From: Balneolaceae bacterium
Lineage (GTDB): Bacteria; Bacteroidota; Rhodothermia; Balneolales; Balneolaceae
Assembly: GCA_020832415.1 (NCBI GenBank)
Contig: JAFIES010000051.1
Location: forward strand, 1 to 32,745
DNA: 32,745 nt
Direction: 5' to 3'
Shown: positions 884 through 19,976 of the stretch, piece after piece
Layout: the number at the start of each line of letters is the position of its first letter
Numbering within the stretch: the first letter of the stretch is position 1
Notes under the pieces: generated by a model
The model's database searches: none
What the model saw: the letters and a program-made list of their open reading frames with translations, nothing else
Told to the model about the DNA's origin: nothing
Translations under genes and position numbers: made by a program

Positions 884-958
884 GATTTTTCTGAACTTCC
901 TTCAGCACAACAGATATAATCATCATACTCCTACAGCAGATCTAGTAAAATATCCCTT

Positions 959-1552
959 ATGAAATTAACAGCCCTTGAAATTAAACAGCAGCAATTTGAA
1001 AAATCACTTCGAGGGTACGATACCACCGAAGTAAATTCCTTTTTAAGCCTGGTTGCCAATGAGTGGGAACATCTTTCCGGAAAAGTTCGCGAACTGGAAA
1101 CCCAGGTGGATAAGATGAACGATAAGCTGAAGCACTACGAACGTGTTGAAGAAGCTCTTCACGAAACACTTCAAACAGCAAAAAATTCAGCTGAAGAGCG
1201 AATGGCAAGTGCCCGTAAAGATGCCGAAAATATCCGTAAAGAGGCTGAACTTGAGGCTGAGTCTATCATACAGGATGCACACACGCAAAGACGTGAAATG
1301 CGGCAGCACATCATACAACTGATCGATAAACGGAATGAAATTGTGCGCAGCATCAGTTCTTTTCTTGAAAATTCCCAGAAAGGCCTCGAACAATTCAACA
1401 CCCAGGATGCCGGACTCTTTACAGTACCCGAATTACCGGAGAAGCCGGAGAAAAAAGCCAAAGCAGAAAAACAGCCTGAAGCCCACAAAGCACCACCGGC
1501 AAACATTCCGGAAACCGATAAAATTGACAACCTGCTTGACGAAATAGATTAA
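959..1552 (+). CDS. DivIVA-domain protein
   Basis: A 197-residue protein whose first about 40 residues (MKLTALEIKQQQFEKSLRGY then DTTEVNSFL) match the DivIVA N-terminal lipid-binding domain (B. subtilis: MPLTPNDIHNKTFTKSFRGYDEDEVNEFL). The rest is a long coiled coil (about 30-145), followed by a Pro/Lys/Glu-rich linker (about 155-180) and a short acidic end. In Gram-positives DivIVA binds curved membrane at poles and septa and recruits partners; members outside that group are less studied. It lies 75 bases after the second PspB-like gene and 18 bases before the purine nucleoside phosphorylase gene, so the genes probably share a transcript. Domain call is confident; the cellular role in this lineage is inference. 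Confidence 0.9.
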   Translation: MKLTALEIKQQQFEKSLRGYDTTEVNSFLSLVANEWEHLSGKVRELETQVDKMNDKLKHYERVEEALHETLQTAKNSAEERMASARKDAENIRKEAELEAESIIQDAHTQRREMRQHIIQLIDKRNEIVRSISSFLENSQKGLEQFNTQDAGLFTVPELPEKPEKKAKAEKQPEAHKAPPANIPETDKIDNLLDEID

Positions 1553-1570
1553 CCGATTTTTAAGACAGAT

Positions 1571-2410
1571 ATGCAACAGATAGACAGTGTAGAAACCTTC
1601 AGAAAAAAACGAGATGAAGCCCTCCGGCACATTCAATCCATTACTGATTTAAGGCCAAATTATATGCTTATTCTAGGCACGGGCCTGGGACAGCTTGCCG
1701 ATGAAATGGATATTGAAATTGAGATACCCTACAATGAAATTCCCCACTTTCCTGTATCAACTGTGGAGAGCCACGCAGGCAAGCTGCTTTTCGGGCAGCT
1801 TGGCGGCAAGCAAGTGGTGGCCATGCAGGGCCGTTTTCATTTCTATGAGGGATATACCATGCAGCAAATTGCTTTTCCGGTTCGGGTTTTAAAAGCCAAC
1901 GGAGCCGACACACTTTTTGTGAGCAACGCCTGCGGGGGCATGAATCCCAATTACAAGCGTGGTGATATCATGCTGATTTGTGACCACATTAATATGCTGG
2001 GGGATAACCCTCTCATCGGGCCAAATGATGATGAACTCGGACCGCGATTTCCCGACATGAGCGATCCTTACACAGAGCGCCTCAGGGAAATTGCACAAAC
2101 CGTTGCTCTCGAAGAGGCCATCGCCATGCACCAGGGTGTATATGTGGCACTGAGCGGCCCGATGCTTGAAACAAAATCAGAGTATCGCTTTCTTCGCTTA
2201 ATTGGCGCAGACGTTGTAGGGATGAGTACCGTTCCCGAAGTAATTTCTGCCGTGCACATGGGAATGGATGTACTTGGTATTTCAGTAATTACAGATGAAT
2301 GTTTTCCGGATGCACTGGAACCGGTAAACATGGAAGACATTTTAAATGCAGCCGCAATGGCCGAGCCAAAGATGACAAAAGTGATCATTCGGGTGCTCGA
2401 AAAACTGTAA
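1571..2410 (+). CDS. punA: purine nucleoside phosphorylase, trimeric (PNP/MTAP) family
   Basis: Phosphorolyses purine (deoxy)nucleosides to base and (deoxy)ribose-1-phosphate in purine salvage. At 279 residues it has the usual length. Family motifs appear in order: GTGLG (36-40, phosphate loop), SHAG (67-70), QGRFHFYEG (86-94), SNACGG (118-123), GPMLET with Glu200 (base contact) and GMST (217-220, sugar/phosphate). Where human PNP has Asn243 in ITN, this protein reads ITDE with Asp242, as in MTAP-like members, which could widen specificity toward 6-amino purines (inference). It starts 18 bases after the divIVA stop and is probably the last gene of that run. Confidence 0.93.
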   Translation: MQQIDSVETFRKKRDEALRHIQSITDLRPNYMLILGTGLGQLADEMDIEIEIPYNEIPHFPVSTVESHAGKLLFGQLGGKQVVAMQGRFHFYEGYTMQQIAFPVRVLKANGADTLFVSNACGGMNPNYKRGDIMLICDHINMLGDNPLIGPNDDELGPRFPDMSDPYTERLREIAQTVALEEAIAMHQGVYVALSGPMLETKSEYRFLRLIGADVVGMSTVPEVISAVHMGMDVLGISVITDECFPDALEPVNMEDILNAAAMAEPKMTKVIIRVLEKL

Positions 2411-2419
2411 TACCATTCT

Positions 2420-2450
2420 TCTTTCCGGGCTGTTATTCTAATAGGAAAGA
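2420..2450 (+). terminator. possible weak terminator after PNP gene
   Basis: TCTTTCC (2420-2426) pairs with GGAAAGA (2444-2450) across a 17-base loop just after the PNP stop codon. The following bases (tcgtatttta) are only moderately U-rich. Confidence 0.3.
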
Positions 2451-2464
2451 TCGTATTTTACGCT

Positions 2465-2491
2465 TGTAATTAAATTCGGAATTTAGTTACA
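2465..2491. promoter_or_regulatory. 27-bp near-perfect dyad, operator candidate
   Basis: TGTAATTAAATTC at 2465-2477 and GAATTTAGTTACA at 2479-2491 are reverse complements around a single central G, with 12 of 13 pairs matching (T2470/G2486 is the exception). The one-base centre cannot form a normal RNA hairpin loop, so a dimeric DNA-binding protein site is more likely than a terminator. It lies 35 bases upstream of the acidic-protein start codon at 2527. No regulator gene is adjacent. Confidence 0.55.
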
Positions 2492-2526
2492 TAGAACAAC
2501 CATTAATTTATTTAGCACATCACTGA

Positions 2527-3309
2527 ATGAGCTTAGACGGTTTTGACGAAGGCCCCATCTGGAATGAACATCAATGGGAGTCTCACCTTGACGAAATCGA
2601 AAAACGCAGCGAGCAGCTTAGGCGCTTTATCACCTCTGACCCTAAAGGAAACACTCCACGCTGGATAACTCTTCTTCAGGAAAGTTTAGACGAGCTGGAT
2701 GCAGTTGAGGCATTTATTGAGGAAGAGCTGTTACTCGACGAAGCGTACTTCCCCGAAGACGAAGACGACTGGGAAGATGATGAAGATGAGTTTGAAGATG
2801 ACGATTTCTTCTTTCGAAATTCTATCTACCCGTTCGATTCGTATGAAGAAGATGAAGACGACGACGATTTCGATTACGGCGAAGACTGGAAAGAGCTCAG
2901 CGATGATTTTACCCTCTCCGATTACGGCTCCATCGAGAATCTGGAAGTTTATAAAGATGCCCGTAGTTATGCCGTTGATGTACTAAAGTGGGCCGAAAAC
3001 ATTCCTTCACACCTGCAAACCAAACAGGTGCACGAATTTATCATCAATGTTCTGAAAATAAGTGCCAAACTTGCAGGTGGCTACTCATTTGGATTTGAGC
3101 AGGATGTACTTGGCGGTAATATCGCCTATACAAAAAAAGCCCTGTACAGTGCCAATAATGCACTTAACTACCTTCAGCACATGAAGAAAGAGCCTTTTAT
3201 AGTTCCTTCAATCTATGCCAAGCTTCACGGCAGGCTATTTGAAATACGGAATGATATTGGTGTTTATGTACAGGAAATGCGCGACCGTTTCCAGCTTGGG
3301 TTTGAATAA
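2527..3309 (+). CDS. acidic protein with probable C-terminal four-helix domain; function unknown
   Basis: A 260-residue cytosolic protein with no signal peptide or membrane segment. Residues 1-72 are helical and charged. Residues about 76-125 are almost pure Asp/Glu with aromatic interruptions. From about 138 to the end is an ordered helical domain (LEVYKDARSYAVDVL, ENIPSHLQ, KISAKLAGGYSFG, YTKKALYSANNALNYL). The pattern L-x-V-Y-K-x-A, then I-P, then A-x-L-A-x-G, then a helix of Ala-rich heptads resembles the S23/Avd four-helix bundle family, but sequence similarity is loose and this is inference. It ends 13 bases from the convergent decarboxylase gene. It is not recognised as a named protein; the acidic block could mimic nucleic acid or bind basic partners. 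Confidence 0.75.
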   Translation: MSLDGFDEGPIWNEHQWESHLDEIEKRSEQLRRFITSDPKGNTPRWITLLQESLDELDAVEAFIEEELLLDEAYFPEDEDDWEDDEDEFEDDDFFFRNSIYPFDSYEEDEDDDDFDYGEDWKELSDDFTLSDYGSIENLEVYKDARSYAVDVLKWAENIPSHLQTKQVHEFIINVLKISAKLAGGYSFGFEQDVLGGNIAYTKKALYSANNALNYLQHMKKEPFIVPSIYAKLHGRLFEIRNDIGVYVQEMRDRFQLGFE

Positions 3310-3322
3310 ACCCTCTGCCCGT

Positions 3323-4777
3323 TTATAAACTCTTCAGCAGTTCCTCTTTTTTCTCCCTCAATACCGAGAGAAGTGTGTCAACTTCGGAAAGATGTGTTCT
3401 GGCTGATAATATAGCTGCCCGAAAGAAAAACCTGCCCCCAATCTGGGTGGTTGAAAGAAATATCCGGCCATCTTCAAGCAGTAGTTTGTGCAGGCTTCTG
3501 TTCAATTCATCATTTACTATCTCATCCGGATCGGGTGTCCACCTGAACATCACCACACTAAGCTGAGGTGCCGGACCTGTCTCAATCTGATCCATCTCTT
3601 CCAGTTTCTCACTGAGATATTTCGCAAGCAGCAGTTTCTCCTCCAGTGCTGCCCTTAATGCAGTTATACCATGGATTTTCAGTGGCAGCCACATCCGCAC
3701 CGCCCTGAAGTGTTTACTTAGCTCAGGAGAAATTTCGGCCGGAGAGTACATTCCTGAATCCACCTTGGTATCATTCATATAACTGGCTTCGAACCGATGG
3801 GAAAAAGCAATTTTTTTAGCCTCTTTTACCAACAAAGCGCCGGTTCCATAAGGCAAAAACAGCCCTTTATGCGGGTCCACCACCAGCGAATCCGACTCTT
3901 CAATTCCCTTCAACATCCTTTTGCCTTTCTCAGTGAGCATAAAGAATCCGCCATAAGCCGCATCCACATGAAACCACAGTCCATGCTTTCGTGCTATCAC
4001 TGCAATATCGGCAAGAGGATCCACTGCACCTGCATCTGTTGAGCCGGCAGAGGCAACAATCAGCCAGGGAATTAATCCCCCGTTCAAATCCTCCGAAATC
4101 GCTTCATCAAGTTTTTCCGGCACCATTCTGAACTGATCGTCCATCGGTATATATCGATGCACACATTCACTCATTCCTGCAATATTAAGCGCCCGTGCAA
4201 CGCAATGGTGTGTTTGCGCAGTGATGTACACCACAGCTTTCGAGAAATCTGCAGCTTTCAGCTTTTTACTATCCCGGGCAGCTACAATTGCCGTAAGGTT
4301 AGCATGGCTGCCGCCGGAAGCCAGGTAACCACCACTTGTTTCAGGATATCCAAAAAGTTCAGCAAGCCAGTATATCATCCTTGTTTCAAGAGCTACCGCA
4401 CCCGGTGATGACGAGTAGACACCGGCGTATCTGTTTGTAACTGCCGCCAGGTAATCTCCAATTGCTGCCACCGACAGCCCTCCTCCGGGTATGTAACCGA
4501 AATGCCTGCCCGAGGTGAGGTTCAGGCCGGGTGGAACAACCTGATCACCAAATATTTTGAGTGCCTCTCCGGGCAAAACACCCGCTTCAGTAATGGGATC
4601 CTCAAGAAGAGTGTTCACAACATTTTTAGTGAAAGGAGTATAGGCCGGAGCATCTTGCTGCTCGTCTAAAAACTGATTGCTATACTGAACGGCCAGTTTC
4701 TGCAGTAACTCTCTTTCATCACGCAAGGGTTCAAGCTGCCTGCTAAGCTTTTCAAGCTGTACTAATCTGTTTTCCAT
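3323..4777 (-). CDS. group II PLP-dependent amino-acid decarboxylase
   Basis: A 484-residue fold-type I PLP enzyme of the aromatic-amino-acid/glutamate/histidine decarboxylase family. Visible motifs are ASGGSHAN (153-160, cofactor phosphate), a ring-stacking His in QTHHC (190-191), HVDAAYGG (270-277) with Asp272 for the pyridine nitrogen, and DPHKG (301-305) with Lys304 as the Schiff-base lysine. It removes CO2 from an amino acid to yield an amine; the substrate cannot be read from the sequence, though overall it looks more like the aromatic or 2,4-diaminobutyrate group than GadB. No signal peptide. It stands alone on the minus strand, divergent from the chitinase and convergent with the acidic-protein gene. 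Confidence 0.92.
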   Translation of the reverse strand: MENRLVQLEKLSRQLEPLRDERELLQKLAVQYSNQFLDEQQDAPAYTPFTKNVVNTLLEDPITEAGVLPGEALKIFGDQVVPPGLNLTSGRHFGYIPGGGLSVAAIGDYLAAVTNRYAGVYSSSPGAVALETRMIYWLAELFGYPETSGGYLASGGSHANLTAIVAARDSKKLKAADFSKAVVYITAQTHHCVARALNIAGMSECVHRYIPMDDQFRMVPEKLDEAISEDLNGGLIPWLIVASAGSTDAGAVDPLADIAVIARKHGLWFHVDAAYGGFFMLTEKGKRMLKGIEESDSLVVDPHKGLFLPYGTGALLVKEAKKIAFSHRFEASYMNDTKVDSGMYSPAEISPELSKHFRAVRMWLPLKIHGITALRAALEEKLLLAKYLSEKLEEMDQIETGPAPQLSVVMFRWTPDPDEIVNDELNRSLHKLLLEDGRIFLSTTQIGGRFFFRAAILSARTHLSEVDTLLSVLREKKEELLKSL

Positions 4778-4853
4778 CGATTGGAAATTCCGTCTGTTTC
4801 TGAATGATTTACTATTTCCATGAATATCGGCAAAATTTTGGGCATCTTTCAGG

Positions 4854-4882
4854 TTGAATGGTCAATCATCTGTGCCATTCAA
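4854..4882. promoter_or_regulatory. 8-bp inverted repeat in divergent promoter region
   Basis: TTGAATGG (4854-4861) and CCATTCAA (4875-4882) are perfect inverted repeats with a 13-base spacer, midway between the decarboxylase start (4777, minus) and the chitinase start (4926, plus). It could be a shared operator; evidence is limited to symmetry and position. Confidence 0.35.
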
Positions 4883-4925
4883 AAAATGGTTCAAACAGTT
4901 ACATTACATCGATTGATCTTTTTCT

Positions 4926-6125
4926 ATGATGACACACAATCAAACCTATTTTCACTCACTGTTTTTGTCACTTTTTATCATTGTCTCTTTGGCGTTTACT
5001 CCGCCTGAAAAGCTATCAGCGGAGAGTAACATCACCAATCTAAATAAAAATGGCACCGAGGATTACAAAATCATCGGGTATGTGGCAGGATGGAGGCAGG
5101 GATGGACAACGGCTGACATCGACGCCAAAAAACTTACCCACATCAACTATGCATTTGCTGATATTGTTGATGGCAGGGTAACTGAATTAAACGATAATGA
5201 TGCACACAATTTTCTTGTGCTCGATTCTCTCCGGACAGAAAACCCTGATCTAAAACTTTTAATTTCAGTAGGCGGCTGGACCCGTTCCACTTTCTTTTCT
5301 GATGCTGCCCTTACGGAAGAGTCCCGCCGTATATTTGCAGAAAGTGCCATTGAATATATGCTGAGGCACAATCTCGATGGTGTTGATCTTGACTGGGAAT
5401 ATCCCGGCCACCCGGGAGCGGGCAATGTTTACCGGGAAGCAGACAAACAGAACTTCACGTTGATGCTCAGAGAGCTGCGCCGGCAGCTTGATGAACAGAC
5501 CATTGCCGATGGGAGAGAAGAGAACCCCTATCTGCTGACAATTGCCACCGGAGCCAGCAAGGGGTTTTTGGAGAATACCGAAATGCATCTTGCCCATCAA
5601 TATCTCGATTTTATCAATGTGATGACTTATGATTATCACACGGGCGGTTCTCCTGTGGCGGGCCATCACACAAATCTTTATCCAAACCAGAGTGTTCACT
5701 TTACCGGCCCCTCGGCCGATCAATCCATTCAGTGGCATATCGATGCCGGCATTCCATCAGAAAAACTTGTATTGGGTGTGGCATTCTATGGGCGCTACTG
5801 GACGGAAGTTCGGCCGGAAAATAACGGGCTTTATCAGTTTGCTCCCGGCAGTGACCGGGGTACGTATCGTTTTGATGAACTTCGCGATGATTTTGTCAGC
5901 CGGAATGGATTTACCCGGTTTTGGGATGATGAGGCCAAAGCTCCCTATTTGTGGAACCCCGATAGCCAAAAACTTATTTCCTACGATGATGAAGAGTCTA
6001 TTAGGTACAAAAGCCACTACATAAAAGCACGCGGGCTTGGCGGAGCAATGTTTTGGGAGTACAGCAATAACTTTGGGCTTGAGCTGCTCAACACACTTTA
6101 TAATGAGTTAATTTTGAACCCTTAA
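4926..6125 (+). CDS. secreted GH18 chitinase
   Basis: A 399-residue glycoside hydrolase family 18 enzyme. It has an N-terminal signal sequence (hydrophobic about 10-24) and a single TIM-barrel domain from about residue 47 (YKIIGYVAGW). LLISVGGW (111-118) forms barrel strand 3, DGVDLDWEYP (151-160) is the catalytic DxxDxDxE motif with Glu158 as acid, FINVMTYDYH is strand 6, and GGAMFWEYS near the end carries the floor Trp. It retains chitin chains by substrate-assisted cleavage. No chitin-binding module or C-terminal type IX sorting domain is seen. Two Met codons (4926 and 4929) are possible starts. It ends 24 bases before the MscS gene on the same strand. Confidence 0.95.
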   Translation: MMTHNQTYFHSLFLSLFIIVSLAFTPPEKLSAESNITNLNKNGTEDYKIIGYVAGWRQGWTTADIDAKKLTHINYAFADIVDGRVTELNDNDAHNFLVLDSLRTENPDLKLLISVGGWTRSTFFSDAALTEESRRIFAESAIEYMLRHNLDGVDLDWEYPGHPGAGNVYREADKQNFTLMLRELRRQLDEQTIADGREENPYLLTIATGASKGFLENTEMHLAHQYLDFINVMTYDYHTGGSPVAGHHTNLYPNQSVHFTGPSADQSIQWHIDAGIPSEKLVLGVAFYGRYWTEVRPENNGLYQFAPGSDRGTYRFDELRDDFVSRNGFTRFWDDEAKAPYLWNPDSQKLISYDDEESIRYKSHYIKARGLGGAMFWEYSNNFGLELLNTLYNELILNP

Positions 6126-11036: not shown

Positions 11037-12380
11037 TTAGTTAGTAGGATATCCCGGGTTTTGCTCCAGATTTGTTTGAATCTGCAGTTCATCCCTTGGT
11101 ATCGGGAAAGCTTTTCTGAAATCTTCACGCCCGAAAAACTCACCCAGCTTATTGAACCGAACAATATCAAAGAAGCGATGGCCCTCGTAATTGAACTCGG
11201 CTCTGCGCTCGTGCAGAATAATATCCACATACTCATCCATGCTTCCAATCGATTCGATATCAGCGAGGCCGGCACGGTTGCGGATTACATTCAAATCAGC
11301 CAGCCCTGCATTGGGATTATTATCCCGCATTGTGGCTGCTTCGGAGCGGATAAGGTACATTTCTGCAAGCCTCAGAACTTTCACATTATTCGCATTATTC
11401 GAATCAGACCATTTTGCGGGGCGATCACTGCCTCGATCAAAAATGAACAGACCGGCTCTATCATCACCTTCTTCAAAAGAATCTGTGAGCGATGGGTTAA
11501 CATTGTACTCATCCCGCTGGAATGTAAAGATAAAGAGCGCACTGCCATCCTGGTCGTTAAATACCAGATCGAAAATAGATTCTGATGTGGTACCTGTTGT
11601 TAGGAAGAGATCATCTACGCTGCTAACCAATGAGAAAGGACCGTTCTCAATCACATCGTTTGCATCGTTAAAGGCGGCATCATAATTCTTTGCGTAAAGA
11701 TTTACCCTTGCGCGAAGAGCCAGTGCAGCCCAGTAGTTCATTGCAGTATTTGTGCTGTAACCTTCCATCAGCGAGATTGCCGTATTCAGATCACTCAGAA
11801 TTTGCTGATACGTTTCTGCCACACTGCTTCTTGCAAGATCAGGAATAAGATTAAAATCATTATTCTCTATTGGCTCGAGCAGAAGCGGCATCCCATAAGG
11901 GGAAGAGGTATCAAAGTGATAGCCGAAAACCCTTAGAAGATCGAAATAGGCTAATGCCCTAATTGCATGGGCTTCACCCAAAACCCGATCTCTCGTTGCA
12001 AAAGCATCATCGTCGATTCCGGGTACTTCCGCAATAAGCAGGTTTGCAATATTTACAACCCGATAGATATTTACCCAGGCGGTTGTAATCCATAGGTTAC
12101 TGATTGGCACAGTTCCTGAATGAACTTCAAGCTGTGAATCAAAAAATCCCTGATAACGGGCATTATCTGCTGCCAGATCGGGGCTGAGCGTGAAATGAAC
12201 ACCATAATAAGGATCTACCTGCATGCGTGAATATGCACCCAGCAATACAGCCTGTGCAGCAGCACCGTCAACGAGCACGGTTTCAGCATCGAGAGATGCT
12301 TGCGGTTCGGTATCCAAAACATCGCAGGACATCAGGAATACCGTCAAAAGTGTAAGTAAGAGTATTGATCGTTTTTTCAT
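11037..12380 (-). CDS. SusD/RagB-family outer-membrane lipoprotein
   Basis: A 447-residue substrate-binding lipoprotein that caps a SusC transporter at the cell surface. The signal peptide ends in a lipobox with Cys19 (FLMSC). N-terminal DVLDTEPQASL, TPR-like helices in the middle and the C-terminal segment RRAEFNYEGHRFFDIVRF, then LEQNPGYPTN, are characteristic of SusD proteins. It begins 11 bases after the susC stop and is followed by a strong terminator, so susC-susD form one unit. The ligand (glycan or peptide) cannot be read from the sequence. Neighbours are a serine hydrolase and an M14 peptidase rather than glycoside hydrolases, which favours peptides or glycopeptides (inference). Confidence 0.95.
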   Translation of the reverse strand: MKKRSILLLTLLTVFLMSCDVLDTEPQASLDAETVLVDGAAAQAVLLGAYSRMQVDPYYGVHFTLSPDLAADNARYQGFFDSQLEVHSGTVPISNLWITTAWVNIYRVVNIANLLIAEVPGIDDDAFATRDRVLGEAHAIRALAYFDLLRVFGYHFDTSSPYGMPLLLEPIENNDFNLIPDLARSSVAETYQQILSDLNTAISLMEGYSTNTAMNYWAALALRARVNLYAKNYDAAFNDANDVIENGPFSLVSSVDDLFLTTGTTSESIFDLVFNDQDGSALFIFTFQRDEYNVNPSLTDSFEEGDDRAGLFIFDRGSDRPAKWSDSNNANNVKVLRLAEMYLIRSEAATMRDNNPNAGLADLNVIRNRAGLADIESIGSMDEYVDIILHERRAEFNYEGHRFFDIVRFNKLGEFFGREDFRKAFPIPRDELQIQTNLEQNPGYPTN

Positions 12381-12391
12381 GATTCCCTGAT

Positions 12392-15300
12392 TTAAAATTC
12401 AATGTTTATTCCGAACGAGATTGTTCGAACCTGAGGGTGAGTTCCAAAATCAGACCCTGCAACAAGCGGGTTTCTCGCATTCTGGTTTACTTCCGGATCG
12501 AGGCCGGTATAGTTTGTAAATGTGAGCAGATTCTGCCCCTGCATGTATAGCCTGAGGTTTCTCATTCCTATTCGTTGTGTGAATTCAGGAGAGAAGTTAT
12601 ATCCAAGCGTTAATGTTTTTAACCGCAGGTATGATGCATCTTCGAGCCATCGGCTGGAGTATTCTCTCCAGTTTTTGTTGGTAAGCGATGCACGAGGTAT
12701 ATCGGTTTCATCACCCGGTTGCATCCAGCGATCATTGGCCAGGCGGTGATTGTTACCATCAGGCAGCGGGAAAATCCCGGGGATTCCAATACGGCTCCAG
12801 CCAAGATTTTCATAGGATGCACGGCTATGGTTGAAAATCTTGTTTCCATATGTGAACTGAAAGAGCATGTTCAGGTCGAAGCCTTTAAAGGTGAATGAAT
12901 TGCCCCATCCTCCATAAAAATCAGGCTGTGCATTGCCAACAATTCGGCGGTCACCGGAGTCGATAACGCCATCACCATTCTCATCAATCCAAAGCATGTT
13001 GCCTGTTTGAGGATCTACACCTTCGTGATCGATAAGGTAGAATGTACCAATCGGGTGGCCTTCGGCAAGAATGTGAGAATCGTTCAGTACCTGGCGATCT
13101 ACTTCAAGCTGAAGTACTTCATTTCTGATAAACGAAATATTAAAGCTTGAACTCCAGGTCAGATCTCTGCCTGAAATAATAGCTCCGCGGATGTCAAACT
13201 CAAATCCTTTGTTTTCTACCTTGCCGATATTCTCGGTTACACTTGAAAAGCCTGAGATACCGGGTATCAATCGGTTCAGAAGAAGATCATCCGTGGTTTT
13301 GATGAAGTAATCGGCACTCAGATTTACCCGATCATCAAAAAGACCTATATCAATACCAACATCAAGCTGACGGGTACTTTCCCATGTGAGGTTTGCATTG
13401 CTTAACTGGGTTGGCACCAGCGTGGGTGTAGCACGATAATCAGATACTCCAAAAAGTCCGCGGGAAGCAAAGTTTCCGATTCCTTCCTGATTACCTGTAA
13501 TACCATAACTAATACGTGGCTTCAATTCTGAGAAAATTCGCTGATTTTCCATGAAACTTTCGTTGGTAATTCTCCATGCAACCGAGGCTGACGGGAAGAA
13601 ACCGTATCGGAAGTTATCACCAAAACGGGAGGAGCCATCCAAGCGGCCGGTTGTTGTGAATAGATATCTGTCATCAAATGAGTAGTTACCTCTGAAGAAG
13701 TAGGAAGCAAGGCCCCAGCTTGTGCCGGAAGTTGATGCAGAGGTTACCTGAGCGGCAACACTAAGCTTCAAAAACTGATCACTTGGGAAACCCTGTGCAC
13801 TGATTGATGAGAAGTTTCTGTTTGATTGCTGAAATGAAGTTCCCAATACAGCATTAACATTATGCCCACCACTAAAGGTATTTACATAAGAGAGGTAATT
13901 CTCAATCAGCCAGGTAAAATCTTGAGTGGTTCCAAAATTACCAAAACCATTACGCTGTGCATTTACTGATTCCCTTGAAATAATCGGAGTATATGCCTCA
14001 TCATCAAGACTTGTATAATCTACTGAAAGTGAACTTCTCAGTGATAGCTGATCGGTAATGGTGGCTACACCAAAAATGGTTCCCAAACCCCGTACTGTGC
14101 GGGTAAATCTCTGATACTCATTTGCAATAAGTAACGGATTATCCAGCATCCACCAACCAAAATAGTTGAAGGGATCGGCATATGAACCATCTGCTTCGTA
14201 TACGGGCATCAGAGGATCGCCAGCAAGTGTGTTGATTACTACGCCATAGAGCGAGTTATCATTAATGGTACGATCCTGAACCGTACGGTTTACAGTAATA
14301 TTTGTACCAAAATCGAGCCAGTCCGTTACTTTCGTATCCAGATTGACACGGCCACTTATACGCTCGAATCCGGTTCCAAACTGTACACCTTCCTGATCAA
14401 AATATGAGAGTGATGTAAAATATCGTGTGTTTTCTGAACCACCAGATGCCGTGAGTTCATAATTGGAAACGGCTGATGTTCTGAAAATCTCATCATACCA
14501 GCGGGTATTCTGAAGATCGGGATCGTTAGGGTCAAAGCCCCAGATATCCGATACGTGAGTGGATGAATAATCAGTACCCAGATCGCGGTTATCCTGTAAA
14601 GCAGCATCGTTCATCATGCCAAGAAACTCCTGCGAACTCATCATATCAATCTGGTTGGTGATATTCTGAAAGCCGGTATACATATTGAATCCGATATTCG
14701 ATTGGCCGGCTTCACCTCGTTTTGTAGTGATGAGAACTACACCGTTTGCACCCCGCGAACCGTAAATGGCTGTAGCGGATGCATCTTTCAAAATCTCGAT
14801 GGATGCAATGTCATTCGGGTTGAGATCTGCAAGTGAGTTTGTAGCCTGACCACCAGAGAACAGACCGGAAAGATCTTCTGAGATCACCGGAACGCCATCA
14901 ATCACATAGAGTGGTTCACTGCTGGCTGAAAGAGATGTCTGCCCGCGAATATTTATGGTGATACCTGCGCCGGGTGTACCGGATGGACTGCTAACAAAAA
15001 CCCCGGAGGCACGGCCCTGCAGTGCAGCATCCAAACTGGCTACGGGCTGATTGGCAATTTCATCAGCCGAAATACTTGCAATGGATCCTGTTAAGTCGCT
15101 CCTGGTTTGCACACCATAGCCAACAACCACAACTTCACTGAGAAGTTGCTGGTCAAGCTGGAGCACAACGTTAATTGTGGACCTGTCGCCCACTAAAATT
15201 TCCTGTGTTTGGTATCCGATAAATGAAATTATAATTACATCATCGGCAGTAGCTGAAATAGAATAGTACCCGTCAATATCGGTTACAGTACCTGTTTCTG

Positions 15301-15466
15301 CATCAGCAGCAAGACGAACGGTGGCACCTGCAAGAGGCTCGCCGGTCGCTGTACTAACTGTACCCGAGACTTCACGCTCCTGAGCGTTTGCCTCCATGGC
15401 ATGCAATGGTACAAATACCAACAACAGAGTACAAAATAGAAGGGGTTGTATCAGTTTAGATCTCAT
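12392..15466 (-). CDS. SusC/RagA-family TonB-dependent transporter
   Basis: A 1024-residue outer-membrane beta-barrel that imports oligomers using TonB energy. It has a signal peptide (about 1-29) and a CarboxypepD-regulatory-like domain (about 32-105: VSGTVSTATGEPLAGATVRL). The SusC hallmark EVVVVGYG (111-118) follows, then the plug domain with NIRGQTSLSASSEPLYVIDG and LKDASATAIYGSRGANGVVL, then the barrel ending in Phe. No N-terminal FecR-interaction (STN) domain is present, and no sigma/anti-sigma pair flanks the locus. It is paired with susD 11 bases downstream. The upstream intergenic region contains a 16-bp palindrome that may bind its regulator. Confidence 0.96.
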   Translation of the reverse strand: MRSKLIQPLLFCTLLLVFVPLHAMEANAQEREVSGTVSTATGEPLAGATVRLAADAETGTVTDIDGYYSISATADDVIIISFIGYQTQEILVGDRSTINVVLQLDQQLLSEVVVVGYGVQTRSDLTGSIASISADEIANQPVASLDAALQGRASGVFVSSPSGTPGAGITINIRGQTSLSASSEPLYVIDGVPVISEDLSGLFSGGQATNSLADLNPNDIASIEILKDASATAIYGSRGANGVVLITTKRGEAGQSNIGFNMYTGFQNITNQIDMMSSQEFLGMMNDAALQDNRDLGTDYSSTHVSDIWGFDPNDPDLQNTRWYDEIFRTSAVSNYELTASGGSENTRYFTSLSYFDQEGVQFGTGFERISGRVNLDTKVTDWLDFGTNITVNRTVQDRTINDNSLYGVVINTLAGDPLMPVYEADGSYADPFNYFGWWMLDNPLLIANEYQRFTRTVRGLGTIFGVATITDQLSLRSSLSVDYTSLDDEAYTPIISRESVNAQRNGFGNFGTTQDFTWLIENYLSYVNTFSGGHNVNAVLGTSFQQSNRNFSSISAQGFPSDQFLKLSVAAQVTSASTSGTSWGLASYFFRGNYSFDDRYLFTTTGRLDGSSRFGDNFRYGFFPSASVAWRITNESFMENQRIFSELKPRISYGITGNQEGIGNFASRGLFGVSDYRATPTLVPTQLSNANLTWESTRQLDVGIDIGLFDDRVNLSADYFIKTTDDLLLNRLIPGISGFSSVTENIGKVENKGFEFDIRGAIISGRDLTWSSSFNISFIRNEVLQLEVDRQVLNDSHILAEGHPIGTFYLIDHEGVDPQTGNMLWIDENGDGVIDSGDRRIVGNAQPDFYGGWGNSFTFKGFDLNMLFQFTYGNKIFNHSRASYENLGWSRIGIPGIFPLPDGNNHRLANDRWMQPGDETDIPRASLTNKNWREYSSRWLEDASYLRLKTLTLGYNFSPEFTQRIGMRNLRLYMQGQNLLTFTNYTGLDPEVNQNARNPLVAGSDFGTHPQVRTISFGINIEF

Positions 15467-15757: not shown

Positions 15758-17065
15758 TTATGAGTAATTTTTGATCTGTTTTCTCAGTTCCTTTATCCCC
15801 GAATTTCCCGGCGAGCCTAAATGGGTAGATTTTTCCAACATATCACTCCAGTGAAGTGATGTAGATATTTCCGGGTCTGTTTTCACGATGTGATACGCCT
15901 CTCTGAATGATACACCTTTCTCCTTCACAAGCTGATTCGCTGCTTCGGCGGCAAATAGTTCTGATGTGCAGGCAGCTTCCAGGTTTTTCGAATTTGGTGT
16001 AATTGCTTCAATCAGAATCTGTGTTACTTCCAGCATCTGTGCTGTTTTATTGATCGATTTTATTACCGGCTCTTTCGAAAGCTGAAGATCTCTGTGATAC
16101 CCGCTGCCTAAATTGGCGGTCAGCATTTGCAGAGTGGAAGCAGAACCAACCACTTCTGAGTGGCCGGCACGAATCAGTTCCGCAAGATCCGGATTTTTTT
16201 TCTGGGGCATGATGGATGAACCGGTGCAGACCACTTCATCCAGATCGAACCAGAGCTGGGCTTCACTGCTGAACTGAATCACATCCGATGCCAATCGGTT
16301 CAGTACCGCTGTAATTCCCGACAAAAATTGAACGATTTGTAATTCCACCCACCCGCGAGAGAGCTGGGCTGTTGTTGAACAGATAATCGGCCCGCTAAAA
16401 CCGAGAGTTTCAGCCTCAAATTCGCGATCAATACCGAATGTAGTTCCAAAACCGGCAGCCGTTCCGAGCGGAGATTGGTTTATGAGACTTTCCACGCCTT
16501 TGGAAGCTTGCACCTGCATGATCAGCATCTCCGCAAACCCACCGGCCCACAATCCCACGCTGCTTAGCATCGCTTTACGTGTGTGGGTAAAACCGGGCAT
16601 GGGTACTTTTTCATGGGTTTCTGCCAGATCTATCAGAAGCTTTGCGCACTTTTTTACTTCATTCAGAATTTCGCCAAGTGCTTCTTTTTCATAAAGTCTC
16701 ACGGCGGTCAAAACCTGGTCGTTTCTGGATCGGCCTGTATGTATTTTTTTACCGAGATCTCCGAGCTTCTCAATCAAAAAATTCTCAATAGCTGTGTGCA
16801 TATCCTCATCCTGCACTGTGATTTTAAACTCTCCCTTCTCCCATATCTGTACGATCTCTGTCAGCACACCATCAAGTTCAGCAAGTTCATTATCCGATAA
16901 AATACCGGCCTTGTTCAGCGCCTGGGCATGAACTTTTGATGCCATTACATCATACGGAACAAGCGTCTGATCCAGTTCATAGTCATTTCCCACCGTAAAG
17001 GCCTCTACCTTTTTGGCGATATCAGATTGGGATGTTGTGGATGCTTTTTGCCAGAGTTTCGACAT
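15758..17065 (-). CDS. argH: argininosuccinate lyase
   Basis: Cleaves argininosuccinate to arginine and fumarate, the last step of arginine synthesis. The 435-residue protein has the fumarase/aspartase-superfamily layout: DEDMHTAIE (87-95), HTGRSRNDQV (109-118), FTHTRKAM (159-166) with the catalytic His, and the signature GSSIMPQKKNP (282-292) with the catalytic Ser loop. The THTRKAM variant is typical of Bacteroidota-type lyases rather than the THLQRAQ form. It is the third gene of an argF-argG-argH run on the minus strand, separated from argG by 180 bases that contain an inverted repeat. Confidence 0.97.
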   Translation of the reverse strand: MSKLWQKASTTSQSDIAKKVEAFTVGNDYELDQTLVPYDVMASKVHAQALNKAGILSDNELAELDGVLTEIVQIWEKGEFKITVQDEDMHTAIENFLIEKLGDLGKKIHTGRSRNDQVLTAVRLYEKEALGEILNEVKKCAKLLIDLAETHEKVPMPGFTHTRKAMLSSVGLWAGGFAEMLIMQVQASKGVESLINQSPLGTAAGFGTTFGIDREFEAETLGFSGPIICSTTAQLSRGWVELQIVQFLSGITAVLNRLASDVIQFSSEAQLWFDLDEVVCTGSSIMPQKKNPDLAELIRAGHSEVVGSASTLQMLTANLGSGYHRDLQLSKEPVIKSINKTAQMLEVTQILIEAITPNSKNLEAACTSELFAAEAANQLVKEKGVSFREAYHIVKTDPEISTSLHWSDMLEKSTHLGSPGNSGIKELRKQIKNYS

Positions 17066-17245: not shown

Positions 17246-18529
17246 CTAAGCGGGCAAGCTGCCCGCAGTACTTTTTACAACCACCTTCTTGAGCTGATAC
17301 GCTGTTTTTTGCGGCAGATTCCAAAGTTCAATGAAACCGGGTGAAGCATTTTGGTTAAATGCCGCCGATTTGTTGAAAGTAGCCAGATTTTCATCAAACA
17401 GTGAATATGGTGAATTAAGTGCCACCACTTCGCAGTTACCTTTGTATAGCCTTACGGTTACATCGCCGGTCACTTTTTTATTCTGCTCGTTGATATATGC
17501 CCGGATGTTATCCATCACCGGCTCGTAATATTTTGCGCCATATATAAGGTATGCCCACTTTTGATCCATCAGCGTTTTCAGCTCATTCTCTTCCCGGGTT
17601 GATACAAGCTGCTCCAGATTTTTGTGCGACTGAATAAGAATATGAGCTGCCGGATTTTCATAGATACCTCTCACTTTCAGGCCAACCACTCTGTCTTCAA
17701 TCAGATGAAAAAAGCCAACCCCGTGTTTGCCGCCAATTTCATTAAGCAGCAGAATCAGGTCTTTCTTGTCGTACTCGATACCATTGAGGCTTACGGGCTC
17801 ACCTTTTTCAAACCCAATTTTAACCAGCTCTTCCTCATCGGGGGCATTCTTAGGTGTGTTACACCATTTGAGGATATTCTCGAGTGGCGGCACGAGTGAC
17901 GGATTTTCAATTTCACCCCCCTCTCCCGTGTTTGCCCACATGTTTTCATCGTATGAGTATGGGCTCTTTTTGGTCTGCTCAACAGGAATTCCATTTTTTA
18001 TGGCATAGGCAATCTCCTCTTCCCGGCCCATTCCCCACTCTCTAACAGGGGCGATAATCTTCAGATCCGGATTCAGCGTTGTAATGTACCCTTCAAACCG
18101 TACCTGATCGTTCCCTTTGCCGGTACAACCGTGTGCTATCACCTCGCAGCCAAATTCCGCAGCAAACTGTACGGCTAGTTCGGATATCATCACCCTTCCC
18201 AGCGGACAGCCAAGTGCGTATCCACCCTGATAATCGGCATTGGCCTTAACAGCTTCCATACAAAGCTGTGCAAAATCGTCTTTTGCATCATAAATGATGG
18301 CATCTTTTGCACCCAGCTTTAGTGCCTTCTGTTTGATCGCTTCAAGATTGTCTGATTTTTGGCCGATGTTGATGGTGAGTGCAATCACATCGCATTCGTA
18401 CTCTTCCCGGATCCATTTAAGCATAACACTTGTGTCCAGGCCGCCCGAATAGAGCAGCAGGCATGTGTTAAAGGTTCCTTTTTCTGCTTCGTGTGAGGCT
18501 ACTTTTTTATAGTTGGTTACTTGTTCCAT
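17246..18529 (-). CDS. argG: argininosuccinate synthase
   Basis: Joins citrulline and aspartate with ATP to form argininosuccinate. At 427 residues, it carries an N-terminal extension of about 20 residues before the ATP-binding PP-motif YSGGLDTS (27-34). Further motifs are HGCTGKGNDQVRFE and the aspartate/citrulline-binding SPYSYDENMWANTGEGGEIE. It starts 48 bases after the argF stop, consistent with a single argFGH transcript controlled by the attenuator upstream of argF. Ends in a variable basic tail (KSTAGSLPA). Confidence 0.97.
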   Translation of the reverse strand: MEQVTNYKKVASHEAEKGTFNTCLLLYSGGLDTSVMLKWIREEYECDVIALTINIGQKSDNLEAIKQKALKLGAKDAIIYDAKDDFAQLCMEAVKANADYQGGYALGCPLGRVMISELAVQFAAEFGCEVIAHGCTGKGNDQVRFEGYITTLNPDLKIIAPVREWGMGREEEIAYAIKNGIPVEQTKKSPYSYDENMWANTGEGGEIENPSLVPPLENILKWCNTPKNAPDEEELVKIGFEKGEPVSLNGIEYDKKDLILLLNEIGGKHGVGFFHLIEDRVVGLKVRGIYENPAAHILIQSHKNLEQLVSTREENELKTLMDQKWAYLIYGAKYYEPVMDNIRAYINEQNKKVTGDVTVRLYKGNCEVVALNSPYSLFDENLATFNKSAAFNQNASPGFIELWNLPQKTAYQLKKVVVKSTAGSLPA

Positions 18530-18577: not shown

Positions 18578-19564
18578 TTATTTGCTTAGTGATTCGGTGA
18601 GTTCGGGCTGAGCAACAGGTTTAAAAAGGGGCTTGTATTCGTCACTAAGAAGAGCTGCAAATACTCCTTTCGATACAATTTTCCTGTTTTTTGCCTGCTG
18701 ATAGACCCACGAGTTTGGATGGTCCATCACCTCGTCGGTTACTTCAATACCCCGGTGCGCCGGCAGACAGTGCATAAAACCGGCATCGGCTTTGGCGGCG
18801 GAGAACAGCTTTTCGTTTACCTGATACGGCTGAAAATGCCTGATTTTATCATCAAAAAGATGCTCTTCTCCCATCGAAACAAAGGTGTCTGTATAAACAA
18901 TATCTGCATTATAAACTGCTTCAGCGGGATCCGTGGTGCTATTGAAACTTCCGCCAAATTGTACAGAAAGGAGTGAAAAATAGTTGAGTTTTTCTTCATC
19001 CCAAGAGTACTGCTGCGGGCCGCCAAAGCTAACACTATGCCCCATTTGCAGGGCGATTTCGAAAAGTGAGAATGCAACATTATTGGCATCGCCTACAAAT
19101 GCTATGTTTAGCTTCTTCTCTTTACCAAAATTTTGCTGAATGGTAAGCAGGTCGGCCAGTGCCTGCATCGGGTGATGCAAGTTGCAGAGAGCATTCACTA
19201 CCGGAATAGTGCCATATTTCATCATTTTCTCGAGAGTTGTATGAGAATAGACCCGTGCAAAAATGGCATCACACCACTGCGATACATTCATCATGGCGTC
19301 AAACAGTGATTCTCTGCAGGTAAACGGCACCGCCTTTCCGTTTGCAAGCAGCAGGTCTGCCTCTATCTGCACAGCATTTCCGCCAAGCTGATTAATGGCT
19401 ACTTCTGTGCCGATTTTGGTTCGAAGTGATGGTTTTTCAAAAACAAAGCCGATGTTTTTTCCATGCAACACCTGCTCGCCGGTGGCTTCAAGTTCTTCAC
19501 TCAGATCTAAAAGCTGCTGTATCTGGGCAGGTTCGAGTTCTCCAATTGTTAATAGATGGTTCAT
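18578..19564 (-). CDS. argF: ornithine carbamoyltransferase
   Basis: Transfers the carbamoyl group to ornithine giving citrulline. The 328-residue protein has the carbamoyl-phosphate motif FEKPSLRTK (42-50; usual form S-T/L-R-T-R, so the last Arg is replaced by Lys50), HPMQ (131-134), the ornithine-binding DTFVSMG (226-232) and HCLPAHRG (265-272). The SMG and HCLP motifs argue for ornithine over the N-acetyl- or N-succinylornithine enzymes. The start at 19564 lies 87 bases downstream of an intrinsic terminator, which itself follows a 20-codon Arg-rich leader. It is the first gene of the arg run. Confidence 0.93.
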   Translation of the reverse strand: MNHLLTIGELEPAQIQQLLDLSEELEATGEQVLHGKNIGFVFEKPSLRTKIGTEVAINQLGGNAVQIEADLLLANGKAVPFTCRESLFDAMMNVSQWCDAIFARVYSHTTLEKMMKYGTIPVVNALCNLHHPMQALADLLTIQQNFGKEKKLNIAFVGDANNVAFSLFEIALQMGHSVSFGGPQQYSWDEEKLNYFSLLSVQFGGSFNSTTDPAEAVYNADIVYTDTFVSMGEEHLFDDKIRHFQPYQVNEKLFSAAKADAGFMHCLPAHRGIEVTDEVMDHPNSWVYQQAKNRKIVSKGVFAALLSDEYKPLFKPVAQPELTESLSK

Positions 19565-19651
19565 GTTCAGTTATGTAGTAGGGTTTTTGAGTTTTTTAAT
19601 CAGGGGTGAGAAAGGACGAGGGCAGCAGTTTTAATTGGCTGATTTCATGCC

Positions 19652-19685
19652 AAAAAAAAAGCCCCGATCAGTTTTGATCGGGGCT
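19652..19685 (-). terminator. attenuator terminator upstream of argF
   Basis: In the minus transcript AGCCCCGAUCA (19685-19675) and UGAUCGGGGCU (19670-19660) form an 11-bp perfect stem with a 4-base loop, followed by at least eight U. It lies between the Arg-rich leader peptide and argF with no complete gene upstream to end, so its natural role is conditional termination of argFGH. Confidence 0.92.
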
Positions 19686-19735
19686 GCGAATAAGTCCTTT
19701 TGTAGAATTAACTACACAGAGATATCACGCGCCCC
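19680..19735 (-). promoter_or_regulatory. proposed antiterminator pairing of the arg leader
   Basis: GGGGCGCG, spanning the last Trp-Gly-Ala codons of the leader (19735-19728), is complementary to CGC-A-GCCCC (19688-19680), the start of the terminator 5' arm, with one bulged A. Forming this helix would prevent the terminator. A second helix, ACACAGAG in leader codons 4-6 (19777-19770) with CUCUGUGU after the stop (19721-19714), is mutually exclusive with it except as a pseudoknot. The arrangement matches ribosome-mediated attenuation. Confidence 0.6.
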
Positions 19736-19787
19736 ACGGGCGGCGACGGCGAAGAATAGAAGTAGTATGCTCTGTGTTGTAATTCAT
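19725..19787 (-). CDS. arginine-rich leader peptide of the argFGH operon
   Basis: A 20-codon frame encoding MNYNTEHTTSILRRRRPWGA, with four consecutive Arg codons (CGC, CGU, CGC, CGC) at positions 13-16, ending 40 bases before the attenuator terminator and 160 bases before argF. A run of the regulated amino acid just ahead of a terminator in front of its biosynthetic genes is the hallmark of a leader peptide for ribosome-mediated attenuation, as in the trp and his systems. A weak AAGAG lies just before the AUG. The same frame is open farther upstream to 19946, so the exact start is uncertain, but the short form fits best. I know of no characterised arginine leader of this type in this phylum. 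Confidence 0.75.
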   Translation of the reverse strand: MNYNTEHTTSILRRRRPWGA

Positions 19788-19976
19788 AGCTCTTAAATTC
19801 GTTCTAAATAAAATGAATCGCAAATAATTTTTTCGGTGTATTCTGAACCATACTTTATCCGGACATCTTCGATGCCTATTGTTCTCAAAAAGTGGTACTA
19901 TGTATGTTGTGCCAAAAGTTTCAAAAAAGTGAAAAAAAGGAACCAAACAGGCATTTTTTAAATTCTAAGTACTATC

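Follow-up and report, generated by a model that had tools for sequence, protein, structure and literature searches.

Arginine biosynthetic operons are textbook targets of the ArgR/AhrC repressor. The window analysed here (the whole 32,745-nt stretch, positions 1 to 32,745 of contig JAFIES010000051.1, from a Balneolaceae bacterium) carries an argFGH operon on the minus strand and raises the question of what controls arginine synthesis in this organism. Control by ArgR/AhrC would involve the same target genes and the same signal, but it acts through a protein repressor, and searches for ArgR (PF01316) were negative in the organism's own genome and across its order (0 of 124 genomes), with nine of 14 control genomes positive. 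We propose that the segment in front of argF very probably acts as a ribosome-mediated attenuator of transcription, similar in type to those of trp and his operons, with charged tRNA-Arg as its signal, a reading based on sequence comparison and modelled folding.

The leader of argFGH and its relatives

A 20-codon frame, MNYNTEHTTSILRRRRPWGA, closed by TGA, lies upstream of argF at 19787-19725 on the minus strand. Its stop codon is separated by 39 nt from a terminator stem (19685-19660, minus strand) of 11 bp, seven of them G-C, which is followed by eight U. The features of the operon and its leader are:

19725..19787, minus strand: leader peptide ORF, MNYNTEHTTSILRRRRPWGA and stop codon (from the sequence; also found before argF in relatives)
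19740..19751, minus strand: control codons 13-16, CGC CGT CGC CGC (from the sequence; the Arg run persists in nearly all relatives even though the N-terminal half has diverged)
19652..19685, minus strand: intrinsic terminator, hairpin 19685-19660 and U-run 19659-19652 (pattern scan; pairs with double changes in relatives)
18578..19564, minus strand: argF, ornithine carbamoyltransferase (TIGR00658 cut-off passed)
17246..18529, minus strand: argG, argininosuccinate synthase (model cut-off passed)
15758..17065, minus strand: argH, argininosuccinate lyase (model cut-off passed)

An earlier note had described this arrangement as an arginine leader peptide and attenuator. The frame, its four adjacent Arg codons, the terminator and the argF-argG-argH order are all borne out, with coordinates and pairings right, and the interpretation appears largely right, regulation by arginine being a prediction from sequence and modelling. 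The 149-nt leader region has a fold of −50.1 kcal/mol (z −4.59 versus 200 shuffles). The source contig is part of a 3.94-Mb draft genome, and the ArgF of the window is identical to that of the Balneolaceae metagenome bin GEM2.Bin41, the closest among the named records found.

The leader was sought in relatives, with families of the order labelled f1, f2, f3, f4 and f56 and genera labelled g1, g10, g172, g175 and g177. A degenerate DNA pattern for RRRRPxGx followed by a stop codon matched once in each of 19 of 128 genomes of the order, compared with two of 128 for a reversed control, and 18 of the 19 matches are directly upstream of argF, the remaining one (G412) being at a contig end. A covariance model (R1) built on 18 leaders and searched over 244 genomes of the class matched in 74 genomes at E≤0.1 and in 27 at E≤2e-7, many of the latter being training leaders. 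Inspection of R1 contexts, from which matches weaker than about E 0.005 were mostly left out, added argFGH leaders in the f1 genera g10, g172, g175 and g177 and in families f2 and f56, and a search with argF added those of G211 and four f2 genomes. In 33 genomes, from families f1, f2 and f56, leader and argF share a contig, and a hairpin with a U-run lies between them in the 33 genomes counted. In six argFGH-type genomes no leader was found (G305, G414, G411, G420, G442 and G413), but their contigs end too close to argF or argG and they speak neither for nor against conservation; G410 is outside the comparison. Outside the order, none of 17 argF homologues has an Arg leader and terminator in the 600 nt upstream. 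In G404, two argFGH stretches with the same leader are present on separate contigs (L095 and L096), by duplication or as an assembly artefact, and in G321 a frame of ∼675 codons lies between argG and argH (L127, 3257-5284).

The N-terminal half of the peptide in these leaders, termed class A, varies freely (MNYNTEHTTSIL, MKKIYTFVLAV and MIEQVRIALNE) while the Arg run stays, with exceptions in L103, which has two adjacent Arg codons, and in L011-L013 and L090, which have three. The C-terminal P-x-G-(V/A) is conserved within genus g1. The earlier note had named a lack of conservation of the Arg run or of the paired segments in relatives as counting against its reading; the comparison did not bear this out.

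These results bear on whether the terminator might be constitutive and the frame an Arg-containing ORF that stands there by chance. Terminators are common, and of 20 weaker R1 places only eight are arg leaders and one (G235) precedes SusC/SusD, leaving 11 without an arg gene or SusC/SusD behind them. However, the conservation, the single occurrence per genome and the compensatory changes would all be unexpected, and a leader-plus-terminator detector applied upstream of argG was positive for 17 of 42 regions versus one of 420 shuffles and two of 42 antisense strands. We consider the likelihood of a chance combination to be negligible. The 11 places without an arg gene behind them (L098, L099, L101, L102 and L104-L110) were dropped as chance R1 matches.

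Alternative pairings and ribosome position

Leader-peptide attenuators of the trp, his, leu, thr, ilv and phe type are known from Proteobacteria. The argFGH leader resembles them in its run of control codons, in its predicted protector, antiterminator and terminator logic, and in the position of the terminator before the first biosynthetic gene. It differs in that arginine would be sensed, in its occurrence in another phylum, in having the Arg codons inside strand 1, in being predicted to be nearly leaderless and in a conserved helix that spans the terminator in the read-through RNA. Three strands are proposed to form the switch:

19738..19746, minus strand: strand 1 (UCGCCGCCC, consisting mostly of Arg codons), predicted to form the protector hairpin by pairing with strand 2 (RNAalifold)
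19723..19736, minus strand: strand 2 (UGGGGCGCGUGAUA, leader end and stop codon), 5' strand of the antiterminator (covariation, own-versus-foreign comparison, masked folding)
19679..19692, minus strand: strand 3 (UAUUCGCAGCCCCG, the pre-terminator segment plus the 5' arm of the terminator, which it thus overlaps), 3' strand of the antiterminator (covariation, own-versus-foreign comparison, masked folding)

When charged tRNA-Arg is scarce, the ribosome would wait at codon 13 or 14 and cover strand 1. Strand 2 would then pair with strand 3 before the 3' arm of the terminator exists, and with the antiterminator formed, RNA polymerase would read through into argFGH. With no translation at all, the RNA of the window is predicted to prefer the protector hairpin and should terminate.

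The predicted antiterminator is built from the leader end and would be mutually exclusive with the terminator. The pairing put forward in the earlier note, GGGGCGCG at the leader end with CGC-A-GCCCC in the 5' arm of the terminator, is present, although the extent given was too short since the duplex extends beyond GCG/CGC and takes in the stop codon (GAUA with UAUU). The best duplex in the window comprises UGGGGC:GCCCCG, a bulged A, GCG:CGC and, via the stop codon, GAUA:UAUU, with an energy of −19.7 kcal/mol. In an 18-sequence alignment, 96.1% of cells in the antiterminator are paired and three pairs have changed on both sides, a covariation score reached by none of 500 shuffles, and slid versions of the helix are 34-54% paired. 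Examples of compensatory change are GUGAUA:UAUCAC in many leaders, GUGAUU:AAUCAC (L003), GUGAAA:UUUCAC (L005) and GUGAGAA:UUCUUGC (L063). Comparisons of the switch involved 33 class A leaders, one of which is the SusC/SusD leader of G235. Strand 2 pairs better with its own partner than with foreign ones (duplex energies of −16.25 versus −13.61 kcal/mol, n=33, 0 of 10,000 permutations; the misparsed L103 is included as a poor fit), and this holds with one leader per distinct strand 2 (n=21, L103 excluded, 0 of 20,000 permutations).

The Arg codons themselves also pair with the leader end (UCGCCGCCC/GGGCGuGUGA in the RNAalifold consensus), which the earlier note did not name. This is predicted to be a protector hairpin like those of trp and his leaders. 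It is nearly invariant, and covariation consequently speaks neither for nor against it.

The effect of ribosome position was modelled with a mask of 15 nt upstream and 12 nt downstream from the start of the A-site codon, the footprint size and the coupling being assumed, and the readout was the probability that strand 3 pairs with strand 2 before the 3' arm of the terminator is made. For the window, this antiterminator probability is 1.00 with the ribosome at codon 13 or 14, 0.22 at codon 15 and 0.00 from codon 16 to the stop codon. With downstream footprints of 10-15 nt, codon 13 stays at 1.00, codon 14 falls to 0.67 at 15 nt and codon 15 ranges from 1.00 to 0.00. Thus, of the stall at Arg codons 13-16 that the earlier note had expected to free the strand, the prediction stands for codons 13 and 14, depends on the footprint for codon 15 and fails for codon 16; its expectation that a ribosome at the stop codon blocks the antiterminator agrees with the model (probability 0.00). 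Means over 32 leaders (L103 excluded) are 0.89 at the first Arg codon, 0.93 at the second, 0.66 at the third, 0.11 at the fourth and 0.00 at the stop codon. A stall at the first Arg codon gives at least 0.75 in 29 of the 32, the exceptions being three f2 leaders (L011, 0.00; L012, 0.56; L013, 0.24).

A stall at codons 9-12 likewise frees the antiterminator (0.90-1.00 in the window, leader means 0.66-0.77), so that the fold fixes only the downstream limit and specificity would come from codon identity. With the terminator complete and the ribosome at the first Arg codon, the equilibrium fold is the terminator (at least 0.85) in 31 of 32 leaders, L061 (0.14) being the exception, and hence read-through must rest on kinetics or pausing. 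In free RNA without a ribosome, the antiterminator probability is 0.01 for the window and 0.27 as a mean over leaders. Some leaders form the antiterminator unaided, for example L064 (1.00) and L094, and the untranslated default may therefore differ among species.

Other RNA elements, promoter and codon choice

Several further elements were recognized in and around the leader:

19770..19777, minus strand: P1 5' arm, ACACAGAG (fold, covariation, own-versus-foreign comparison)
19714..19721, minus strand: P1 3' arm, CUCUGUGU (fold, covariation, own-versus-foreign comparison)
19702..19715, minus strand: P2, a small hairpin (GUAG-UUAAUU-CUAC) that lies between strands 2 and 3 (pairing in 87.5% of cells; weakly supported by covariation)
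19694..19700, minus strand: i2 (AAAGGAC), before the terminator, pairing with j2 (covariation, own-versus-foreign comparison)
19611..19617, minus strand: j2 (GUCCUUU), 35-41 nt after the last U (covariation, own-versus-foreign comparison)
19818..19823, minus strand: putative −35 element TTGCGA, 36 nt before the leader ATG (position of TTG in relatives; promoter function inferred)

The 8-bp helix ACACAGAG/CUCUGUGU (P1), which the earlier note had seen as an alternative default fold, is present and covaries, but the minimum-energy fold contains both P1 and the terminator, so that P1 does not exclude the terminator. Its covariation score was reached by none of 500 shuffles and its own-versus-foreign difference by none of 10,000 permutations; P1 slid by two columns also scores, via an ACAC repeat.

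The i2:j2 helix spans the terminator. Variants with both sides changed include AGAACUU/AAGUUCU, CAGGGAUUU/AAAUCCCUG, CAGGAUU/AAUCCUG and AAGGAAU/AUUCCUU. Single-sequence shuffles give p values of 0.004 to 0.307, mostly non-significant alone, and the own-versus-foreign comparison gives 0 of 5,000 permutations (n=18), or 0 of 20,000 with one leader per distinct i2 (n=9). The helix is missing from L005. By reading of the listed structures, the stretch from i2 to j2 forms a three-way junction in 16 of 18 leaders (all but L005 and L064), a count in which this fold is favoured by the choice of j2 as the best partner. The second hairpin in the stretch is mildly better than in shuffles (mean z −1.4). 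In the 18 read-through leaders, most of the final 36 nt upstream of argF is unpaired (mean 0.83 versus 0.51 for the whole leader). We infer that the read-through RNA would refold into a three-way junction in which i2:j2 closes off the terminator hairpin and the second hairpin, which would leave a mostly unpaired stretch before argF. Since i2:j2 is possible only after read-through, it cannot decide termination; our guess is that it protects or insulates the argF message.

The junction could also be taken to act on the read-through mRNA, with the leader controlling the translation of argF or the decay of its mRNA and the terminator as mere background. This is the mode of two known leaders with arginine codons, as extracts of the papers describe them. 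In Salmonella speF orf34, ribosome pausing on consecutive Arg codons senses arginine, as proposed here, but the response involves Rho, RNase G and access to the ribosome-binding site in place of an intrinsic terminator, and the pathway is the synthesis of putrescine and not of arginine (PMC6386406). In Staphylococcus aureus rbfL, Arg codons of a leader ORF likewise sense arginine limitation, but the leader blocks translation of a biofilm regulator and has two Arg codons (PMC13009471). For argFGH such control has a very slight chance of being the explanation: a hairpin with a U-run separates leader and argF in 33 genomes, the covarying antiterminator overlaps that hairpin, and the mostly unpaired 36 nt give no evident sequestration of the argF start.

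Transcription attenuation, the preferred reading, would begin on a nearly leaderless mRNA. A possible −10 element, GAATTT (19800-19795, minus strand), accompanies the putative −35 element and the predicted transcript start is at or beside the leader ATG. Of the 33 class A leaders, 27 have a TTG at 35-37 nt upstream of the start codon, and the position of the −35-like element is the basis for predicting that the leader mRNA is nearly leaderless. In extracts of a study of Streptomyces lividans, leaders are similarly mostly ORFs at the 5' end of the transcript with hairpins after them, although they are leaders for Leu, Trp, Ala, Ile, Met and Thr, with none for Arg (PMC8079986), and leaderlessness of the argFGH leader is predicted.

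Codon choice within the leaders is biased. CGC or CGU accounts for 125 of 148 leader Arg codons in class A and for 104 of 120 in a second class described below (class B), versus 160 of 433 in 24 genes of the window. The bias may be forced by the hairpin in class A, and no such constraint was seen for class B. According to the theory of selective tRNA charging, attenuators use the codons that are most starvation-sensitive in translation (PMC1183508, in extract), and the CGC/CGU bias of the leaders offers a natural test of it.

A second leader class and SusC/SusD

The order has two arg operons, argFGH, whose ArgG is at least 78% identical to that of the window, and another that is led by argG and whose ArgG is ∼30% identical. 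The second operon is preceded by a class B leader, typically RRRRFRRR...CEDCV and a stop codon, with its own terminator. This leader was found in 13 of 13 f56 genomes examined (of 16; G453, G463 and G464 were left out), in the one f4 genome, in two of four f3 genomes, where L156 is a possible third, and in two of two f2 genomes. The argG-led operon of f1 has another gene upstream, and no Arg leader was found near it in 12 of 12 genomes (L205-L216, 4-7 kb examined); L215 has one weak Arg-rich frame, more than 4 kb from the operon. The detector applied upstream of argG accepted unbroken stems only and so missed the class B leaders of L148 and L149. L171, one of its 17 positive regions, is a false positive far from argG. 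A class B model (R2), searched with strict filters over 395 genomes of the phylum, gave E<1e-18 only in three members of the order, all of them training genomes, and the other matches, at E 3e-6 and weaker among those listed, cover mostly the terminator half and in some cases the whole model.

In class B, the leader end and the terminator form the antiterminator as a long helix (such as GUGAAGAUUGUGUCUG with GGCAGGAUCUUCGC), and own partners again beat foreign ones (n=15, L151 excluded, permutation p 0.0001). In contrast to the window, the antiterminator forms even in the absence of a ribosome in 12 of 16 class B RNAs (at least 0.64), and a ribosome at the stop codon reduces it to 0.05 or less in 14 of 16. 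Classes A and B have mainly the Arg runs in common; their antiterminator and terminator sequences differ, and class B is without P-x-G.

This comparison is informative for two further explanations. In one, an arginine aptamer, a T-box or an RNA-binding protein toggles the same RNA and the ORF is incidental. The region is indeed largely structured and conserved, and i2:j2 and P1 are superfluous to a simple ribosome model. However, no Rfam family reached its gathering score in the window or in six relatives, T-boxes and other cis-regulator families included, and the weak matches in the window are far under cut-off. Within the peptide, moreover, it is the Arg run that stays constant and the other codons that drift, and class B keeps Arg runs with a different antiterminator and terminator sequence. 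A non-ribosomal attenuator is on these grounds improbable.

In the other, RRRRPxG(V/A) would stall the ribosome through the exit tunnel on a metabolite rather than by empty A-site codons, as happens with SpeFL and ornithine. The P-x-G-(V/A) C-terminus is conserved in g1, but its codons encode strand 2 and the protector loop, so that RNA pairing can explain the conservation. The first half of the peptide is poorly conserved, class B, having no P-x-G, has mainly Arg runs in common with class A, and we see little likelihood of arrest by the nascent peptide. When the window leader and two class B leaders were compared with the leader-peptide families of Pfam and NCBIfam, the SpeF leader included, none gave a match at E≤1, although very short proteins can escape such a profile search.

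Stalling at Arg codons, as in the attenuator proposed here, appears to do the job of ArgR in several families of an order where ArgR was not found; there are two classes of leader, and the switch of each covaries separately. Leader-peptide attenuation would then cover arginine synthesis and this phylum as well. Flavobacterium psychrophilum belongs to a phylum related to that of the window organism. Strong indications that leader peptides attenuate operons for amino-acid biosynthesis have been described there, with pheA and hisG among the conserved 5' elements; the proposed mechanism is the same, and the extracted passages name no arginine leader (PMC9723704). Extracts of other papers deal with cysteine and other uORF motifs (PMC8632094) and with pyrimidine attenuation and arginine control of carAB in pseudomonads (PMC4997734), and there is no mention of arginine in the extracted main text of PMC2965389 or in the extract of PMC13236596. 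An arginine biosynthetic leader-peptide attenuator was not found in the openly licensed literature searched, which does not establish its absence from print. The attenuation mechanism is known; new to us are its use for arginine synthesis and its presence in this phylum, together with the existence of two classes and of a helix that spans the terminator.

Genes for a TonB-linked SusC and then a SusD, which may belong to the same unit, begin 291 bp after argH in the window:

11037..15466, minus strand: susC (15466-12392) and susD (12380-11037), possible distal part of the argFGH unit (synteny with argH in some relatives; G235)

A pattern scan listed no terminator on the minus strand of the argH-susC interval. 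Among solved structures, the SusC of the window is closest by sequence to a SusC homologue and next to RagA. The stretch after argH (15466-7346, minus strand) encodes SusC, SusD, a beta-lactamase-family hydrolase and an M14 zinc carboxypeptidase, possibly a peptide-uptake set. The argFGH-susC order is shared by the window, G419 and three g10 genomes (G428, G430 and G211), and argH-susC occurs on contig ends in G408, G409 and G413. Six other g1 loci (L125-L130) are without these SusC/SusD orthologues at that place, one of them having a different SusC.

In G235, of the same genus as the window genome, searches for argF (E 1e-20) and argG (E 1e-15) were negative. G235 retains the leader MKFYGNILLMHTRRRRCLLGM with stop codon, the terminator and the antiterminator (0.98 at the first Arg codon), and leader and terminator (L112, 352-498) directly precede the SusC/SusD orthologues (903-5330). 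The simplest reading, for this one genome searched for argF and argG, is that argFGH was lost and the switch retained. The linkage suggests a single switch for arginine synthesis and import.

We tentatively put forward, as possible but on the whole doubtful, a joint account in which an order without ArgR runs arginine synthesis by codon-reading RNA switches with at least two origins, class A ahead of argFGH and class B ahead of the argG-led operon, which rely mainly on CGC/CGU and perhaps on one tRNA-Arg isoacceptor. Class A would be leaderless, its three-way junction would have a function of its own in protecting or insulating the argF message, and where argFGH was lost the switch would govern an outer-membrane SusC/SusD importer. 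If true, a biosynthesis switch would have been turned into an arginine-hunger uptake switch.

Two f2 genomes (L092 and L093) contain, from position 1501, the frames MIFPNAHINNIWWWSIR and MIFTNAHINNTWWWSIR, each with a stop codon, then a terminator and, by eye, a trpE-like frame. They were rejected as Arg leaders and are likely tryptophan leaders, noticed because the Arg model matched them. Several leader-peptide attenuators are probably in use in the order.
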